Shown here piece after piece: positions 31,264 through 39,470 of a stretch of DNA of 64,000 nt. The notes below the pieces were generated by a model. That model was not told the origin of the DNA. It saw only the letters and a list, made by a program, of their open reading frames with translations, and did not search any database. The translations under genes and the position numbers were made by a program. Within the stretch, counting starts at the first letter, position 1, and the number at the start of each line of letters is the position of its first letter. This DNA comes from Comamonas sp. SCN 65-56 (GTDB taxonomy: Bacteria; Pseudomonadota; Gammaproteobacteria; Burkholderiales; Burkholderiaceae_C), in NCBI RefSeq assembly GCF_001724135.1, contig NZ_MEDS01000005.1, positions 62,001 through 126,000 of the forward strand. The letters run 5' to 3'.

Positions 31264-31764
31264 CTATTTCTTGAGCGGTATCGGCGTTGCCTCGGGGATG
31301 GGCACGGCCGTGATGCTGTTCTGCGGCGAGCCATCGACGAGTTTGTCCGAATACGTCAGATAGACCAGCGTGTTGCGTTTTTCATCGACCATGCGCACCA
31401 CGCGCAGGCGCTTGAAGACCAGCGAGATGCGTTCGCTGAAGACCTCCTCCTGCTGCTTGAGTGGTTTGGCGAATGCCACCGGGCCCACTTGGCGGCAGGC
31501 GATGGAGGCTTCCGCGCGGTCTTCCGCCAGCCCCAGCGTGCCCTTGATGCCACCGATGCGCGCGCGCGAAACGTAGCAGGTGATGCCCTGCACTTGCGGA
31601 TCGTCATAGGCTTCGACAATGATGTCGTGGTCGCGCCCGAGCCACTGGAAGGCCGTATCGACGCTGCCGATCTTCTCGCCCGAAACGGCGAAGGCGCTGC
31701 CGGCAGCCAGCAGCAGAGCGCCGATAGTGAGGACGATGTGTTGGATGGTTTTGATCGGGCTCAC
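31264..31764 (-). CDS. creA: CreA family periplasmic protein
   Basis: 166 aa from GTG 31764. The N-terminus (IQHIVLTIGALLLAAGSAFA) is a signal peptide cleaved near SAFA-VSG. The mature protein has CreA-type blocks: GSVDTAFQWLGRDHDIIVEAYDDP, the Cys-containing VQGITCYVSRARIGGIKG and EEVFSERISLVFKRLRVVRMVD (quoted in outline). CreA proteins are conserved, secreted and of unknown function. The GTG overlaps the cphA stop (GTGA), so translation is probably coupled to cyanophycin synthetase, an unusual pairing of a periplasmic with a cytosolic product. Confidence 0.88.
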   Translation of the reverse strand: MSPIKTIQHIVLTIGALLLAAGSAFAVSGEKIGSVDTAFQWLGRDHDIIVEAYDDPQVQGITCYVSRARIGGIKGTLGLAEDRAEASIACRQVGPVAFAKPLKQQEEVFSERISLVFKRLRVVRMVDEKRNTLVYLTYSDKLVDGSPQNSITAVPIPEATPIPLKK

Positions 31765-34337
31765 AGATGTGGTTCCTTGCAGCGCTGTTGCAGGTGTGCC
31801 AGCGACTCTTGCACCTGATCGACCAGCACCAGGCACAGGTCGCCCGCTTGCAGGCGCTGCAAGGCATGGTCGATGGCGATGAATTCGCCGTGGATTTCGG
31901 TGATGTAGCTGGCGCGCCGGGCGCCCTGCAGGCCCTTGTGCAGCAGCGCCAGCACCTCGCCATCGGCGCGCCCGCGCTGGCAGGCGTCCTGGTAGAGGAT
32001 GACGTCGTCAAAGCTTGAACCGAGGATTTCGGTTTGCTCGCTGATGTCCTGGTCGCGCCGGTCGCCGGCGCCGCTGATGACCACCGCGCGGCGTTTGCCG
32101 GGCATGGCCTGCGTTGCCTGCACCAGCGCGCGGATGGCGTCGGGGTTGTGGCCGTAGTCGGCAATGATGGTGGCGCCGTGGTAGTCCATCACGTTGAAGC
32201 GCCCGGGCACGGCGTCGGCGCTGCTCTCGAAACTGGCCAGGCCTCGACGCACCGTGTCCCACGGCAGACCCAGGCCCCAGGCGGCGCCCACGGCGGCCAT
32301 GGCGTTGTCCACCTGAAAGCCGATCACGCCGCCATGCGTGAGCGGGATGTCGCGCAACGCGATGCTCTCGCGCCACGAACCTTCGGCGGCGACGATGCGG
32401 CCCTCGTCCACGTACACCACGCGTCCGCCTTGCGCGCGATGCGTGACCATGGCGGGGTGGTGGCGGTCGTGGGCAAAGAAGATCACCTTGCCGGGGCAGA
32501 CATGCGCCATCGGCACGCAATGGGCATCGGCGGCATTGAGCACCGCGTAGCCGGTAGGGGCGACGTTCTGCACGATGACGCGCTTGAGCACGGCCACGTC
32601 TTCGACCGTGGTGATGTAGTTCAGCCCCAGGTGGTCGCCGGCGCCGATGTTGGTGACCACGGCCACCTGGCATTGATCGAAGCCCAGGCCTTCACGCAGG
32701 ATGCCGCCGCGCGCGCATTCCAGCACCGCCGCCTCGGTGTCGGGGTGCGCCAAGGCGTTGCGCGCGCTCTTGGGACCGGAGCAGTCGCCGCTGTCGATCT
32801 GGTGTCCGCCGACGTACACGCCGTCGGTGTTGGTCATCGCGGTGGTCCAGCCATGCGCGCTGCACAGGTGGGCGATGAGGCGGGTGGTGGTGGTCTTGCC
32901 GTTGGTGCCGGTCACGGCGACCACGGGAATGCGGCCATCTTCGCCCGGGGGAAAGAGCGCGTCGATCATCGGCACGCCCACATTGCGCGGCTTGCCGTAG
33001 GAGGGCGAAAGGTGCATGCGCAGCCCCGGCGCGGCGTTGACCTCGACGATGCCGCCGCCTTGCTCTTCCAGCGGTTTGAGCATGGATTCGCAGATCACGT
33101 CCACGCCGCAGATGTGCAGGCCTATGGTCTGCGCGGCATCGACCGCGCGCGCGGCGATCTCGGGGTGCACGTCGTCGGTCACGTCGGTGGCACTGCCGCC
33201 GGTCGACAGATTGGCGTTGTGCCGCAGCACGATGCGCTGGCCTTGCGCGGGCACCGATGCAGGACTCAAGCCTTCATTGCTCAGGCGCGCCAGCGCGATA
33301 TCGTCCAGGCGGATCTTGGTGAGCGCCGTCCCGTGACCGCTGCCGCGGCGCGGGTCCTGGTTGACGATGTCCACCAGTTCGCGGATGGTGTGTTCGCCAT
33401 CGCCCAGCACCTGCGGCGGCTCGCGCCGGGCGGCGGCGACGAGTTGACCACCGACGACGAGCAGGCGGAAATCGTGCCCGGGCAGAAAGCGTTCGACCAT
33501 CACCTCGCCGCTGTACTCCAGTGCCGTGGCGTAGGCGGCTGCAAGCTGCTCGCGGGTGGTGATGTTCACCGTCACGCCCTTGCCCTGGTTGCCGTCCTGT
33601 GGCTTGACGACCACGGGAAGGCCGACTTCTTGCGCCAGTGCCCAGGCGTCGTCGACATCGCTGACCGGCCGGCCCAGCGGCACGGGCACGCCGGCGGCAT
33701 GCAGCAGGCGCTTGGTCAGGTCCTTGTCCTGCGCGATCGATTCGGCCACCGCGCTGGTCATGTCCAGCTCCGCGGCCTGCACGCGCCGCGCGCGCGCGCC
33801 CCAGCCCAGTTGCACCAGCGAGCCGCTGGTCAGGCGCTTGAATGGAATGCCGCGCGCCTGGGCGGCGTCGATGATGTTGCGCGTCGAGGGCCCCATGCGC
33901 ACGTCCTGATCGAGCTCGCGCAGCTCGGCGACGGTGGCCGCCGCGTCGTAGGGGTGATCGTCCAGCGCGGCGCGGATCAGCGCCGTGGCCTCATCGACTG
34001 CCTTGCGCCCAACCTCTTCCTCGGTGTACTCGACGACCACCTGGTAGGTGTCCGTCTCCACCGTTTCGTGCGTGCGGCTGAAGGTGACGCTGCAGCCCGC
34101 CTGCGCCTGCAACTGGCGGGTGGCGGTTTCGAGCACGTGTGCCAGCGACACCGGCTGTTCGGCGCCCTGTGGCGCCAGCGGCCCGATGGCGGGAAAGCGC
34201 GCGCGCAGGCGGTCTTCAAACCCGGCGATGGTGGCGATGTCGTGCTCGCTGGGTTCGCAGTGCACTATGGTTTCCATGGCCGTGCTGCGGGTCCAGAGAT
34301 TGGGGCCGCGCAGCGCGCGGGAGCGAAGAATTTGCAT
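31761..34337 (-). CDS. cphA: Cyanophycin synthetase CphA, full-length two-active-site form
   Basis: 858 aa. CphA polymerises Asp and Arg into the storage polymer cyanophycin. The N-terminal domain (1 to about 160) opens with RALRGPNLWTR. The ATP-grasp domain (about 200-450) contains KDLTKRLLHAAGVPVP, VVKPQDGNQGKGV and GGGIVEVNAAPGLRMHL; it adds Asp to the backbone. The Mur-ligase-like domain (about 465-858) has an intact P-loop GTNGKTTTT at 477-485 and a complete C-terminal subdomain (IADYGHNPDAIRAL, VISGAGDRRDQDI); it adds Arg to the side chain. It lies 57 bp downstream of cphA' and overlaps creA. Cyanophycinase is not in the window. Confidence 0.94.
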   Translation of the reverse strand: MQILRSRALRGPNLWTRSTAMETIVHCEPSEHDIATIAGFEDRLRARFPAIGPLAPQGAEQPVSLAHVLETATRQLQAQAGCSVTFSRTHETVETDTYQVVVEYTEEEVGRKAVDEATALIRAALDDHPYDAAATVAELRELDQDVRMGPSTRNIIDAAQARGIPFKRLTSGSLVQLGWGARARRVQAAELDMTSAVAESIAQDKDLTKRLLHAAGVPVPLGRPVSDVDDAWALAQEVGLPVVVKPQDGNQGKGVTVNITTREQLAAAYATALEYSGEVMVERFLPGHDFRLLVVGGQLVAAARREPPQVLGDGEHTIRELVDIVNQDPRRGSGHGTALTKIRLDDIALARLSNEGLSPASVPAQGQRIVLRHNANLSTGGSATDVTDDVHPEIAARAVDAAQTIGLHICGVDVICESMLKPLEEQGGGIVEVNAAPGLRMHLSPSYGKPRNVGVPMIDALFPPGEDGRIPVVAVTGTNGKTTTTRLIAHLCSAHGWTTAMTNTDGVYVGGHQIDSGDCSGPKSARNALAHPDTEAAVLECARGGILREGLGFDQCQVAVVTNIGAGDHLGLNYITTVEDVAVLKRVIVQNVAPTGYAVLNAADAHCVPMAHVCPGKVIFFAHDRHHPAMVTHRAQGGRVVYVDEGRIVAAEGSWRESIALRDIPLTHGGVIGFQVDNAMAAVGAAWGLGLPWDTVRRGLASFESSADAVPGRFNVMDYHGATIIADYGHNPDAIRALVQATQAMPGKRRAVVISGAGDRRDQDISEQTEILGSSFDDVILYQDACQRGRADGEVLALLHKGLQGARRASYITEIHGEFIAIDHALQRLQAGDLCLVLVDQVQESLAHLQQRCKEPHL

Positions 34338-34394: not shown

Positions 34395-36569
34395 TCAATG
34401 TTGGTATTCGAATGTTTTGATGCCGGCGGCGATCAAATCGGGCGCTATGCCCAGGGCCCAGGCGCCTGCAATGGCCGCCAGCAGCGCGGTGGTATCGGGG
34501 GTGCTGCCAACCGCCGGGCGCAGCGCAGCCAGGCTGCCGAGCACGCGCTCCTTGGCGCCGGTAGCAAGGCATATGTGCTCGCCGCGGACAAAGACGGCAC
34601 GCGCCTCGGGCTGCGCCCGGTGCTGTGTCAGCGTCGCGTTGTCGGCCGAGAGCGCATACAGCAGCACCTCGCCGTCGCAGAGCTCGGCCAGCTCCGCCAC
34701 GGGCGCGATGTCCGCATTGAGCACGCCGGCGCCGCCCTCCAGCACCACGTCGATCTGGGTGCGCAGCACGCGCGGCATCTGCTGCGGGCCGCGGATGTCG
34801 TGATCGGCGAGCTGCTCCCAGCCATCCATGTCGGTGACGATGCCGACCTGGCAGCGGTCGTAAGCCAGGCCCTCGTCGAGAATGGAGCGCGCCGTGGTCT
34901 GGACCACCGCCGCCTCGGCCAGGCGGTTGGTCAGCAGCCGATGCGCGCCCGCCCAGTGGGCGGTGTCGGTTTTCTGGGTTTGCCGTCCGGCGATGAACAT
35001 GCCCTCGCTGCTGGCAATGCCGGTGAGCTTGCCCGAGAGCTGCAGCAGCCAGCCCACCAGCCGCGCGATGAAGGCGTTGCCGCGGGTGCCCGCCACGCCG
35101 ACGATCGGGATGCGGCCCGCGTGACTGCCCTTTTCGCTGCTGCTGGGAAACAGGTGTTCGACGATGGCCTGGCCCACCGGGCGCGGCGAGCCGCTGGACG
35201 GCTTGAGGTGCATCAGCAGGCCAGGCCCGGCGTTGACTTCCAGAATCGCGCCGCCCTGCGCGCGCATGGGGCGGGAGATGTCCTTGAGGATCATGTCCAG
35301 GCCGGCGATGTCCAGGCCGACCACGCGCACCGCCAGCTCGGCGTGGTAGGCCACGTCGGGGTGCAGCTCGTCGGTGCAGTCGATCGCCATGTTGCCGTTG
35401 CGCTGCAGCAGCACCTTCCGGCCGGCGGCGGGCACGGTGTCGGCCGTGACCTCCTGGCGTGCCAGTTCGAGCTGGATGTTGGGCAGATTCAGATCCAGCA
35501 ACTCCAGCGGGTATTCCTCTTCCACGCCGCGGCGCGGGTCGCGGTTGAGCTCCTCGACCAGCGCCTTGAGCGTGCGCTGGCCGTCGCCGGTGACGAAGAC
35601 TTGCTCGCCACGGCAGGCGGCCACCACCTTGCCGCCCACCACCAGCAGCCGGTGCTCGGTGCCTTCGATGAATTTTTCGACGATCACCTCCGAGCCTTCC
35701 TTCTCGGCCAGCGGAAAGGCGGCGCGGATGTTCTTTTCCTGGTAGAGCTCCAGCGTCACGCCGCGCGCGTGGTTGCCGTCGCTGGGCTTGACGGTGACCG
35801 GCAGACCGATGTCCTGCGCCGCTTCCCAGGTCTCGTCGGCGCTGGCCACGATCTGCCCTTCAGGAACGGGCACGCCGGCGGCAGCCAGCAGGCGCTTGGT
35901 CAGGTCCTTGTCCTGCGCGATGCCTTCGGCGATGGCGCTGGTCTGGTCGGTCTCGGCCGTCCAGATGCGCCGCTGCGCCGCGCCGTAGCCCAGTTGCACC
36001 AGGTTGCCGTCGTTCAGGCGCACCTGCGGGATGCGCCGCTCCTGCGCGGCATCGACGATGCAGGCGGTGCTCGGCCCGAGGTAGTTGTCGTCTATCGTGG
36101 TCTTGATCGTCTGGATGGCGCGCTTGAGGTCGAACGCGTCGCCGTTGATCGCCGCCATGATGAGCGCATGGCCTTGCGCCAGCGCCACCCGCGCCACCGC
36201 CTCTTCGGGGCAGCGGAACACCATGCGGTAGGTGCCGGGCGTCGACGTCTCGCGCGTCTGGCCGAACTTGGCGGGCAGGCCCGAAAGGTTGAGCAGCTCG
36301 ATGATGACGTGCTCCAGCACATGGCCCATCCAGGTGCCCTCGCGCAGGCGCTCGATGAAGCCGCCGCGCTCGCCCACGCCGCAGTGGTGCTCGACCAGAT
36401 CCGGCAGCCAGGCGGTGAGGCGCTCGTTGAAGCCGGGAACCTTGTTCGATGGATGCTGCTCCAGCTCCCCGAGCGCCAGCCAGACTTCGAGCGCTGGACG
36501 GTAGGTCCAGATGCTGGGCCCGCGCAGATAGGTGGCGCGGAGCAATCGGATATCTTCAAAGCGTGGCAT
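34395..36569 (-). CDS. cphA': Cyanophycin synthetase paralogue CphA' with dead, truncated Mur-ligase domain
   Basis: 724 aa from ATG 36569 (MPRFEDIRLLRATYLRGPS). The N-terminal and ATP-grasp domains are intact (KDLTKRLLAAAGVPVPEG, VTVKPSDGNHARGV, GGAILEVNAGPGLLMHL). In the Mur-like domain the P-loop position (494-500) reads GTRGNAF instead of GTNGKTT, losing the ATP-binding Lys and Thr. The protein stops after LIAAGIKTFEYQH, where CphA continues for about 140 residues of the third Mur subdomain. It probably has only the backbone-forming active site and may act in a complex with CphA, or like cyanobacterial CphA2 on beta-Asp-Arg dipeptides. That role is inference. Confidence 0.9.
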   Translation of the reverse strand: MPRFEDIRLLRATYLRGPSIWTYRPALEVWLALGELEQHPSNKVPGFNERLTAWLPDLVEHHCGVGERGGFIERLREGTWMGHVLEHVIIELLNLSGLPAKFGQTRETSTPGTYRMVFRCPEEAVARVALAQGHALIMAAINGDAFDLKRAIQTIKTTIDDNYLGPSTACIVDAAQERRIPQVRLNDGNLVQLGYGAAQRRIWTAETDQTSAIAEGIAQDKDLTKRLLAAAGVPVPEGQIVASADETWEAAQDIGLPVTVKPSDGNHARGVTLELYQEKNIRAAFPLAEKEGSEVIVEKFIEGTEHRLLVVGGKVVAACRGEQVFVTGDGQRTLKALVEELNRDPRRGVEEEYPLELLDLNLPNIQLELARQEVTADTVPAAGRKVLLQRNGNMAIDCTDELHPDVAYHAELAVRVVGLDIAGLDMILKDISRPMRAQGGAILEVNAGPGLLMHLKPSSGSPRPVGQAIVEHLFPSSSEKGSHAGRIPIVGVAGTRGNAFIARLVGWLLQLSGKLTGIASSEGMFIAGRQTQKTDTAHWAGAHRLLTNRLAEAAVVQTTARSILDEGLAYDRCQVGIVTDMDGWEQLADHDIRGPQQMPRVLRTQIDVVLEGGAGVLNADIAPVAELAELCDGEVLLYALSADNATLTQHRAQPEARAVFVRGEHICLATGAKERVLGSLAALRPAVGSTPDTTALLAAIAGAWALGIAPDLIAAGIKTFEYQH

Positions 36570-36632: not shown

Positions 36633-36716
36633 GCGGCTGTCAGCCGCGAGCGGGGTGCAGGCGTTAGGGATAACCATAGGTCGCGCCTGCGACCAGCGGC
36701 GTTCCTGCAGTGCAGG
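36633..36716. promoter_or_regulatory. Three inverted repeats in the divergent cphA' / ABC transporter promoter region
   Basis: GCGGCT-GTC-AGCCGC (36633-36647), GGTCGC-GCCT-GCGACC (36679-36694) and CCTGCA-G-TGCAGG (36704-36716) are all perfect. They lie in the 169-bp space between the two divergent halves of the cyanophycin locus. The last sits 22 nt before the transporter ATG. They are candidate operators or leader hairpins; no regulator is encoded nearby. Confidence 0.45.
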
Positions 36717-36738
36717 CAGCGTGTTCAATAGTCAAACA

Positions 36739-39003
36739 ATGCAACATCACCATGAATCGGGCGCTTCAAGCGCTCTGACGGAACCCTTGGCGGGGGGTTG
36801 GCAAGGCGTCCTCGCATCCAGCGAAAACGTGCTGGCGGTGCTGGAGGTTGACCTCAGCAGCGAATTGCGCTTTGCCCGTGCCAGCCTGCTGCTGACCTCG
36901 CAGCGCCTGCTGGCGCGCGATGCCCAGGGGCGGGTGCAGGAATGGGCGCTGGCGCAGGGCCAGACGCTGCAGGAGTTCGATGCCGGCGGCGTCGGCACGC
37001 TGGAATTGCACGATGGCGATGGCCGGCAGGCGCTGTGGCGCTTCACGCTCTCCCGCCATCCGCAGGCGCTGGAGTTCCAGCAGCACTTTGCGCGCTGCAT
37101 CGCGCACCTGGGCCGTCCGCACGCGCTCGCGGCGCTCCAGGCACAGGCTCCGCGGTGCCCACAGTGCCATGCCCTGCTGCCCGAGGGCAGCGAAGAATGC
37201 CCTGCCTGCGCGCCCACGGAAGAGGAGGCCGCCGCCTCCGGCTGGGTGCTGCTGCGCCTGTGGCGCTTTGCCAGGCCTTACCAGGGCAAGCTGCTGCTGG
37301 GCTTTGTGCTCACGCTGCTGTCCACCGCAGCCACGCTGGTGCCGCCCTACCTCACCATCCCGCTGATGGACGATGTGCTGATTCCTTACCAGGACGGCAA
37401 AAGCATTCCGGTGTCCACCGTGGCGCTGTACCTGAGCGGGCTGCTGGCGGCCTCGCTCTTTGCCTGGGCGCTGGGCTGGGCGCGCACCTATGTGCTGGCG
37501 CTGGTGTCCGAGCGCATCGGCGCCGATCTGCGCACCGCCACCTACGAGCATTTGCTGCGCCTGTCACTCGATTACTTCGGCAGCAAGCGCACCGGCGATC
37601 TGATGGCGCGCATCGGTTCCGAGACTGACCGTATCAACGTCTTCCTCTCGCTGCATGCGCTGGATTTCGCCACCGACGTGCTCATGATGGTCATGACGGC
37701 GGTGATTCTGGTCTCGATCAACCCCTGGCTGGCGCTGGTCACGCTGGTGCCGCTGCCCTTCATCGCCTGGATGATCCATGCCGTGCGTGACCGTTTGCGC
37801 ACCGGCTTTGAAAAAATGGACCGGCTGTGGAGCGAGGTCACCAACGTGCTGGCCGACACCATTCCCGGCATCCGCGTCGTCAAGGCCTTCGCCCAGGAGG
37901 CGCGCGAGGCCGAGCGCTTTCGCGTCGCCAACCAGCGCAACCTGGCGGCCAACGATCGATTGAACAAGACCTGGAGCCTGTTCTCGCCCACGGTCACGCT
38001 GCTCACCGAAATCGGCCTGCTGGTGGTTTGGGCCTTCGGCATCTGGCTGGTGGCGCATGAGCAGATCACCGTCGGTGTGCTGACCGCGTTCCTGGCCTAC
38101 ATCGGACGCTTCTACACCCGGCTCGATTCGATGAGCCGCATCGTTTCAGTGACGCAGAAGGCGGCGGCCGGCGCCAAGCGCATCTTTGACATCCTGGACC
38201 ACGTGAGCAACGTGCCCGACCCGGCCAATCCGGTGCGTCTGCCGCGCATCCAGGGTGCCATCGACCTGGAAAACGTGGTGTTTCGCTACGGCAGCCGCAC
38301 GGTGGTGAAGAACGTTTCGCTGTCGATTCGCCCCGGCGAGATGATTGGCCTGGTCGGCCACAGCGGCTCGGGCAAGAGCACGCTGGTCAACCTGATCAGC
38401 CGCTTTTCCGATGTGGCGGATGGCTCCATCAGCGTCGATGGCGTCGATATCCGCCGCATGGCGGTGGCCGATTGGCGCCGCCACATCGGCCTGGTGCTGC
38501 AGGAGCCCTTCCTGTTCTTTGGCAGCATCGCCGAGAACATCGCCTACGGCAAGCCCGAGGCGACGCGCGCCGAGATCATCGCCGCCGCGCGCGCCGCGCA
38601 TGCGCACGACTTCATCCTGCGCCTGCCGCTGGGCTATGACTCGCTGGTGGGCGAGCGCGGCCAGGGGCTTTCGGGCGGCGAGCGCCAGCGCATCAGCATT
38701 GCCCGTGCGCTGCTGATCGATCCGCGCGTGCTGATCCTGGACGAAGCGACGTCCGCTGTCGATACCGAGACCGAGAAGGAAATCCAGCGCGCGCTGGACA
38801 ACCTGGTGCAGGGCCGCACCACGATCGCCATTGCCCACCGCCTTTCCACGCTGCGCAAGGCGGACCGCCTGGTGGTGATGGACCGCGGCGAAATCGTGGA
38901 GATCGGTCCGCACGATGAACTCATGGCGCGCGAAGGCGCCTATTGGCGCTTGTATCAGGCGCAGGCCCGGCGCGAAGCCGAAGTGGAAGGAGCCGCCGCA
39001 TGA
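36739..39003 (+). CDS. Cyanophycin-locus ABC transporter, fused membrane and ATPase domains
   Basis: 754 aa from ATG 36739. Residues 1 to about 135 form a soluble beta-rich domain of unknown function. A zinc-ribbon-like C140xxC143 and C154xxC157 pair follows. A six-helix exporter-type transmembrane domain spans about 175-470. The nucleotide-binding domain has Walker A GHSGSGKST (540-548), signature LSGGERQ (644-650) and Walker B LILDE (665-669), then AIAHRLST. It should work as a homodimer in the inner membrane. Genes of this type adjoin cphA in many betaproteobacteria, so a cyanophycin link is likely, but the substrate is unknown. No clear Shine-Dalgarno sequence is seen. Confidence 0.9.
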   Translation: MQHHHESGASSALTEPLAGGWQGVLASSENVLAVLEVDLSSELRFARASLLLTSQRLLARDAQGRVQEWALAQGQTLQEFDAGGVGTLELHDGDGRQALWRFTLSRHPQALEFQQHFARCIAHLGRPHALAALQAQAPRCPQCHALLPEGSEECPACAPTEEEAAASGWVLLRLWRFARPYQGKLLLGFVLTLLSTAATLVPPYLTIPLMDDVLIPYQDGKSIPVSTVALYLSGLLAASLFAWALGWARTYVLALVSERIGADLRTATYEHLLRLSLDYFGSKRTGDLMARIGSETDRINVFLSLHALDFATDVLMMVMTAVILVSINPWLALVTLVPLPFIAWMIHAVRDRLRTGFEKMDRLWSEVTNVLADTIPGIRVVKAFAQEAREAERFRVANQRNLAANDRLNKTWSLFSPTVTLLTEIGLLVVWAFGIWLVAHEQITVGVLTAFLAYIGRFYTRLDSMSRIVSVTQKAAAGAKRIFDILDHVSNVPDPANPVRLPRIQGAIDLENVVFRYGSRTVVKNVSLSIRPGEMIGLVGHSGSGKSTLVNLISRFSDVADGSISVDGVDIRRMAVADWRRHIGLVLQEPFLFFGSIAENIAYGKPEATRAEIIAAARAAHAHDFILRLPLGYDSLVGERGQGLSGGERQRISIARALLIDPRVLILDEATSAVDTETEKEIQRALDNLVQGRTTIAIAHRLSTLRKADRLVVMDRGEIVEIGPHDELMAREGAYWRLYQAQARREAEVEGAAA

Positions 39004-39470
39004 GCCGTCTGTTTGAACTGGTGCGCAACGCCCACGGTCGCTTGGTGCTGCACCTGGCCGATGGCAGCGAGCATGTTGGCGTGATACCGGTGCGCGCGTT
39101 TCCGATCACCGCGTCCGATGAGGGGCTTTCCCTCGTCGGCGCCGAAGGCAGCGAGCTGCTCTGGATTGATCGGCTGGATGCGCTGCCCGGCGCCGTGCGT
39201 GCACTGATCGAGGAAGACCTCGTCGCGCGTGAATTCCTGCCAACGATTGAGCGGATCGTGTCGGTGTCCAGCTTTTCCACGCCCAGCACCTGGCAGCTGG
39301 AGACCGACAAGGGCCCGGCCACATTGGTGCTCAAGGGCGAGGAAGACATCCGGCGCCTGGCCAAACGCACGCAGCTGCGCATCAGCGCCAGCGACGGCGT
39401 GCAGTTCCAGATTCCGGACATCAACCGGCTGGACAAATCTTCGCGCAAATTGTTGGAGCGGTTTTTATAG
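39000..39470 (+). CDS. DUF1854 family protein of the cyanophycin locus
   Basis: 156 aa from ATG 39000, overlapping the ABC transporter by ATGA, so translation is coupled. It is soluble with no signal peptide. It begins MSRLFELVRNAHGRLVLHL and has DUF1854-type segments VIPVRAFPITASDEGLSLVG, LLWIDRLDALP and GVQFQIPDINRLDK. The function is unknown. Constant pairing with the transporter and cphA genes suggests it assists transport, or cyanophycin granule handling. I assign the family from sequence recall rather than a motif with known chemistry. Confidence 0.82.
   Translation: MSRLFELVRNAHGRLVLHLADGSEHVGVIPVRAFPITASDEGLSLVGAEGSELLWIDRLDALPGAVRALIEEDLVAREFLPTIERIVSVSSFSTPSTWQLETDKGPATLVLKGEEDIRRLAKRTQLRISASDGVQFQIPDINRLDKSSRKLLERFL

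Follow-up and report, generated by a model that had tools for sequence, protein, structure and literature searches.

Adjacent cyanophycin synthetase genes in Comamonas sp. SCN 65-56 with complementary active sites, probably two halves of a split CphA1

We analysed a window of 64,000 nucleotides from Comamonas sp. SCN 65-56 (contig NZ_MEDS01000005.1) that carries two adjacent genes of the cyanophycin synthetase family, here called cphA' and cphA. CphA' (34395..36569, minus strand) is a protein of 724 residues with an ATG start, composed of an N domain, a remodelled ATP-grasp (G) domain and the degenerate core of a Mur-ligase-like (M) domain without its M-lid. CphA (31761..34337, minus strand) has 858 residues, retains the synthetase sites of the G and M domains and has lost the N-domain site (N-site). 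The two genes share a strand; that for CphA' lies immediately upstream of that for CphA, and 57 nucleotides separate them. In a PDB sequence search, residues 8-721 of CphA' aligned with residues 2-722 of SuCphA1 (E = 2.4e-134). Both proteins score above the cut-off of 877 bits of the cyanophycin synthetase subfamily NF010623 of NCBIfam (CphA' 997.6, CphA 1237.4), whereas only CphA (967.5) passes the 850 bits of the equivalog model TIGR02068, which CphA' fails with 681.1. The original prediction for this DNA, made from the letters alone, had placed a crippled CphA', about 140 residues shorter, just upstream of an intact CphA. The position holds and the actual difference is 134 residues, but CphA is itself incomplete, lacking the N-site and carrying Q at position 267 and S at 215. 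Residue numbers throughout are those of SuCphA1, taken from the PDB alignment, in which the residues named in the available text of PMC9262961 and PMC9427784 are found where those papers place them.

A search across 300 genomes of the order, including the window's own, gave a near-full-length match to CphA' in 102 (E = 1.7e-196 or better). We took 100 pair regions, spread across 27 of the 51 family codes of the order; together with the window and one genome from a phylum-wide search, these provided 102 CphA' and 99 CphA sequences. Three CphA' (L089, L106 and L108) lack a CphA row because their contigs end before that gene. Two of the 99 CphA rows are cut by contig ends, leaving 97 that reach the M site, and 97 full-length CphA were used for the all-column scan and for the counts at positions 603 and 607. 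The pairs of genomes G172 and G287, also cut by contig ends, were left uncounted, and the split or partial CphA-like matches of G229 and G136 were left out of the motif counts. Five pair regions were added later; four (L313, L314, L316 and L317) come from genomes outside the first count. Lone CphA proteins were represented by nine rows from the phylum-wide search, which covered 398 genomes and gave a match in 29, and by eight rows from two other families of the order. In the 97 regions where both genes are visible, they always share a strand with CphA' first, at a gap of -10 to 276 nucleotides (97/97). Among the matches listed in a plasmid search, none reached at least 60% identity.

The clearest difference between the two proteins lies in the N domain. 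According to the available text of PMC9262961, the CphA1 N domain bears a metallopeptidase-like site, Cx19HxxEH (C59, H79, E82 and H83), that cuts cyanophycin into primers; it was discovered as a third activity within one protein. Codons 61-87 of CphA' (36309..36389, minus strand) read HHC-x19-HVLEH and correspond to H57, C59, H79, E82 and H83. These five residues, together with R70 and E87, are present in 102/102 CphA', the window's included, while the four-residue motif occurs in none of the 99 partner CphA, and H57 and C59 are without a counterpart in all of them. In the window CphA, the stretch LAHVLETATR (34116..34145, minus strand) is a remnant of the HxxEH helix, and the loop bearing H57 and C59 is deleted. 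The pair regions added later follow the same pattern, with a complete N-site in 5/5 CphA' and none in 5/5 CphA. Lone CphA keep the site in 9/9 phylum-wide rows and 8/8 rows from the same order (17/17), and cyanobacterial CphA1 have the motif residues in 19 of 20 rows.

An all-column scan, run with no site preset, identified 14 positions that CphA' retains but CphA does not; 13 of them lie in the N domain (positions 28-102), and the other is H267. The reverse losses, those of CphA', comprise the aspartate pocket (323, 389, 390, 393, 395-399, 454 and 458), positions 539, 540, 560, 561, 563 and 602 of the M domain, and positions 116, 203, 307 and 353.

In the G domain, the available text of PMC9427784 assigns K220, K261, D431 and E450 to ATP and Mg, H267 and R309 to the chain end, and R323, R458 and N394 with the 389-399 loop to the binding of aspartate. 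CphA' retains K220, K261, R309, D431, E450 and N452 in 102/102 sequences and H267 in 100/102. The aspartate pocket is dismantled: R323, which meets the aspartate beta-carboxylate, is G in 100/102 (ACRG in the window, 35607..35618, minus strand); R458, which meets the alpha-carboxylate, is L in 98/102 (PGLLMH, 35208..35225, minus strand); and positions 396-398 of the Gomega loop are deleted in 102/102, as is 399. In the window protein, NGNM (35388..35399, minus strand) stands in place of the deleted loop, and an N still aligns at 394. The claim that the ATP-grasp motifs of CphA' are intact is thus right for the ATP, Mg and chain-end residues and wrong for those that bind aspartate. Partner CphA retain R323 in 99/99 rows, S396 and R458 in all 98 rows with letters there, and nine G-domain residues together in 98/99.

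The M-domain site consists of the P-loop (495-501) and D585/H586, and the M-lid corresponds to residues 724-876 of TeCphA1, as given in the available text of PMC9427784. The P-loop of the window CphA' is degenerate, reading GTRGNAF (35070..35090, minus strand; residues 494-500) against the intact GTNGKTT of CphA (32889-32909), and EQ replaces D585/H586. The M-lid is absent, since the match to SuCphA1 ends at residue 722. A dead P-loop and a missing last Mur subdomain, the features on which the original prediction was built, are therefore real, yet they do not define CphA'. In eleven of the 102 CphA', all of them long (813-883 residues), the M site is intact, with the lysine motif of the P-loop, E558 and D585/H586 all present. 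The window's CphA' belongs to the remaining 91, which are short (700-778 residues) and have scattered P-loops; G..GK[TS] can still be read in 22 of them, and in 33/102 overall. We rejected GTRGNAF as a conserved new motif, because the exact string occurs in the window alone among the 102 rows; GTRGN, whose conservation had been proposed as a check, is not conserved. In the partner CphA, K499, E558 and D585/H586 are present in 97/97 rows.

Two residues of the M core are kept in CphA' even though the P-loop is gone in most of its members. R603 and D607, found in VLRTQID of the window protein (34749..34769, minus strand), occur in 102/102 CphA'. In SuCphA1, these positions of the M core touch the polymer bound in the N-site (available text of PMC9262961). 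Their invariance would explain why a non-catalytic M core has been retained. In CphA, position 607 is mostly Q (60/97) or E (31/97).

We considered whether the short CphA' is an assembly error or a recent frameshift and rejected this, because 91/102 CphA' are short and only 57 nucleotides precede CphA. A dead pseudogene was likewise rejected: the fraction of near-invariant columns is 0.219 in CphA' versus 0.087 in CphA for the N domain and 0.264 versus 0.261 for the G domain. For the M core it is 0.060 versus 0.247.

A tree was calculated from the G domain without the trait columns (107 rows, 296 columns), with 37 of the 102 CphA', 36 of the 99 CphA and five of six additional copies from a second locus in genus g61, described below. 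The CphA' sequences form a clade (100/99), and so do the pair CphA (87/96). The two are sisters together with a further sequence, L153 (100/97), which sides with the pair CphA (93/83). L153 (genome G478) is a single CphA that runs off its contig end, with the N, G and M residues intact except for Q267; no CphA' was found in its genome (93% complete, 8% contaminated). It looks like a surviving form from before the split. Long CphA' stand both at the base of and inside the CphA' clade, where several branches are weak. The long/short trait requires at least five changes on the tree, or about ten separate losses if loss is irreversible (counted from the printed tree). Because 11/102 CphA' keep an intact M site, loss of this site in CphA' was apparently later and repeated. 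The likely order of events is duplication first, followed by loss of the CphA N-site and the CphA' aspartate pocket, with repeated decay of the M domain in CphA' coming last.

Site presence and loss, pairing, gene order, the sister relationship and the later loss of the M site are observations. We read them, with a probability of about 0.73, as the outcome of a split: CphA' and CphA would be the two halves of a CphA1, separated by duplication and complementary loss into a primer-making CphA' and a polymerising CphA. The gene would have been duplicated within this bacterial order, and the two copies would then have lost opposite activities. CphA' would have given up the aspartate pocket of its G domain but retained the zinc site of the N domain, at which long cyanophycin is cut into short primers; CphA would have given up the N-domain site but retained those of the G and M domains, where aspartate and arginine are added. 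A few long chains made slowly by CphA would be cut into short pieces by CphA' and extended again by CphA, making synthesis self-sustaining. The M domain of CphA' would then have been free to lose its P-loop and lid, and only the face of the M core that keeps the polymer in place at the N-site would have been spared. On this account CphA' should bind zinc and cleave cyanophycin and CphA should depend on it for primers, the two acting either in one particle or in trans. A hetero-complex of CphA' and CphA, one of the earlier proposals, is plausible, and a priming function, another of them, is strongly supported by the conservation of the N-site.

In L317 of genome G284, the CphA' carries K220R, H267R, R323D, E450D and R458A together with a broken M P-loop, and its N-site is complete; the cutter stays when the other sites erode. 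L317 is one of the four further pairs, all of which agree with complementarity.

Two PDB entries, 7LGM and 7LGN, both keep the G and M sites and H267; one of them is presumably the primer-dependent TmCphA1. We take 8FXH and 7TA5 to be CphA2. Compared with CphA1 (SuCphA1, 7LG5; TeCphA1, 7WAC), CphA' has the N-domain Cx19HxxEH in common but lacks the aspartate pocket, has a degenerate M domain and is without an M-lid; those functions are found in the neighbouring protein. The window CphA in turn resembles TmCphA1, a primer-dependent CphA1 without the N-domain motif that, like others of its kind, has been suggested to use leftover chains as primer (available text of PMC9262961). It has the N-site absent and the G and M sites present, but with Q267 and without E215, and, unlike TmCphA1, it has an N-site-bearing paralogue in its operon. 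According to the available text of PMC9262961, SuCphA1 with dead G and M sites, or its isolated N domain, makes TmCphA1 primer-independent when supplied in trans. The reading of CphA' as the primer-making and CphA as the polymerising subunit therefore follows this precedent, and the pair would look like a natural form of that experiment.

Several observations weigh against this reading or limit it. In 4/99 partner CphA an H aligns at position 83, and the string HxxEH is found in 3/99, without C59. The strict Cx19 spacing holds in only 5/9 phylum-wide lone CphA, although the four residues align in 9/9. R603 is not specific to CphA', since CphA has R there in 85/97. The N-site is also not universal: one of the 20 cyanobacterial CphA1 rows lacks the motif, as do all six copies at the second loci of genus g61, which stand beside a cyanophycinase, so some cells do without it. 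CphA has Q at 267 in 97/99 rows, the window's included, and alanine at this position inactivates SuCphA1; L153 has Q267 with its other sites intact, which suggests, but falls short of proving, that Q is tolerated. E215 is absent from all 99 CphA, and its change to alanine strongly impairs TeCphA1 and reduces SuCphA1 by about half; it is also absent from all 102 CphA'. Finally, the G domain of CphA', apart from that of L317, seems too conserved to be idle: it is constrained as strongly as that of CphA, and new residues near fixation, namely T203 (102/102), E307 (100), G323 (100), E353 (92), Q390 (92), G454 (97) and L458 (98), have taken the place of the aspartate clamps and neighbouring positions. 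A bare primer-maker thus fails to explain everything.

The last point bears on an alternative in which the remodelled G domain of CphA' is, besides the N-site, an active ATP-grasp ligase with another acceptor, for instance one that caps chains with an amine or joins them. Its constraint, the retained ATP, Mg and chain-end residues and the fixed new ones all favour such an activity. We nevertheless consider it unlikely, given that no candidate acceptor is known, that binding of ATP or the chain end could be all the pocket is kept for, that E307, E353 and Q390 are no more than candidate pocket residues, and that L317 has lost several of these residues yet keeps its N-site. Another alternative is a non-catalytic CphA' that joins CphA in a hetero-oligomer and serves there as a scaffold or a regulator. 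The constant adjacency of the genes and the alteration of both biosynthetic sites in the window CphA' would suit this role, but a scaffold would not require the invariant residues of the N-site, most of which the partner has lost, and we regard it as very unlikely. Very unlikely too, in our view, is the enzyme that the original prediction had considered, a CphA2-like protein repolymerising beta-Asp-Arg dipeptides through its G domain. CphA2 is defined by the absence of the M P-loop and M-lid in the available text of PMC9427784, losses that the window CphA' shares, and 102/102 CphA' retain R309 and the residues for ATP and Mg. The remaining features are reversed. CphA2 lacks the N-domain active-site motif (available text of PMC9262961) but still has R323 and the Gomega loop; in CphA' the motif is present, and R323 and the loop are lost. 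In nine sequences from 19 cyanobacterial genomes (open frames of 624-669 residues), assigned to CphA2 by length, host and match extent and not by a family search, the N motif occurs in 0/9 and R323 with the N394-S396-G399 loop in 9/9, with K at 267 and the M P-loop lost. Moreover, some CphA' keep an intact M site, and in L317 the ATP and Mg residues have changed as well. A source of dipeptides is also missing, because neither TIGR02069 nor PF03575 (cyanophycinase) has a match in this genome.

This absence would fit a further possibility, that CphA' is the cell's cyanophycin degrader, its N domain mobilising the store in place of a cyanophycinase. TIGR02069 is matched in only 9 of 76 pair genomes, seven of these above the cut-off, compared with 4/4 lone-CphA genomes tested, where it lies within about 2.3 kb of cphA; the available text of PMC5178258 likewise reports that no cyanophycinase gene was detected in betaproteobacteria. 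However, the SuCphA1 N-site works slowly, and its products are oligomers instead of dipeptides (available text of PMC9262961). Neither IaaA (PF01112) nor IadA was found in this genome; among 40 pair genomes, IaaA was matched in 16 and IadA in none. Making and degrading the polymer from one operon would also be futile unless regulated. We judge degradation as the function of CphA' to be quite improbable; it is compatible with a primer role and does not exclude it.

If CphA1 has indeed been split into CphA' and CphA, the N-site activity appears to have been separated in nature, with sites that are exactly complementary in the pairs examined. The pair would then be a natural system for testing how far cyanophycin synthesis is limited by the supply of primers, and the division suggests a reason for the persistence of two adjacent cphA genes. 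It predicts that cphA of such bacteria would yield little polymer when expressed without cphA'. More sharply posed, too, is the question of how bacteria without a recognisable cyanophycinase use or release cyanophycin.

Paired cphA genes have been described before. The 'Group 1' cluster of activated-sludge bacteria has two adjacent cphA and an ATP-binding cassette (ABC) transporter, with no cphB in the cluster, and in Accumulibacter both cphA copies of this type of cluster are evenly expressed (available text of PMC10687191). Sideroxydans has adjacent copies named 'CphA1/CphA2', like the window pair (available text of PMC5178258). Two cphA genes with an ABC transporter and without cphB are therefore already in print; as far as the available text of these two papers goes, active sites and division of labour were not examined. 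Our literature search, whose coverage left out most subscription papers, returned no report of complementary CphA'/CphA sites.

Divergent from the pair, on the plus strand, lies the open reading frame of a 'cyanophycin metabolism-associated ABC transporter' (36655..39003; possible start ATG at 36739; NF052233 of NCBIfam, 1366.7 bits), with a CxxC...CxxC stretch resembling a zinc ribbon ahead of the membrane part. It is accompanied by a 'cyanophycin metabolism-associated DUF1854 family protein' (38943..39470, plus strand; NF052234, 222.9 bits). The transporter is present in 92/100 pair regions, divergent in 87 of these, and the DUF1854 protein in 81/100, with about 3 kb covered on that side. 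Both are found in 0/11 other CphA regions, three of which are g61 loci. A literature search combining DUF1854 with cyanophycin gave no papers. Given the strongly conserved, remodelled G domain of CphA', with its lost carboxylate clamps and near-fixed new residues, and the missing cyanophycinase, one could imagine that CphA' also attaches another acceptor, perhaps a cationic one, to the end of the chain or links chains together, and that the four genes make defined oligomers of cyanophycin for export, in place of a store that can be mobilised; we see this as a long shot.

On the other side, a CreA-family gene (window positions 31264-31836) directly follows CphA, its open reading frame overlapping the end of CphA. 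It is probably outside the cyanophycin system, because a CreA match occurs in only 2/100 other pair regions.

In three genomes of genus g61 (G056, G269 and G298; loci L302, L303 and L304), a second locus carries another two CphA genes, one on each strand, an arrangement unlike that of the window pair. These copies otherwise keep the G and M sites and have Q267; an IaaA-type gene lies near the second locus of G269.

Other relatives of these synthetases were also seen. L175 (genome G016), in the same order, is a synthetase-like frame of 775 residues without the M-site motif, in which KGKVGGG replaces DGNHGRG; from its sequence it is a possible non-cyanobacterial CphA2-like enzyme. L177 and L192 (G027) and L185 (G136) contain neighbouring ATP-grasp frames of 580-620 residues related to the G domain of CphA, and in G136 several such matches lie within about 17 kb of one contig.

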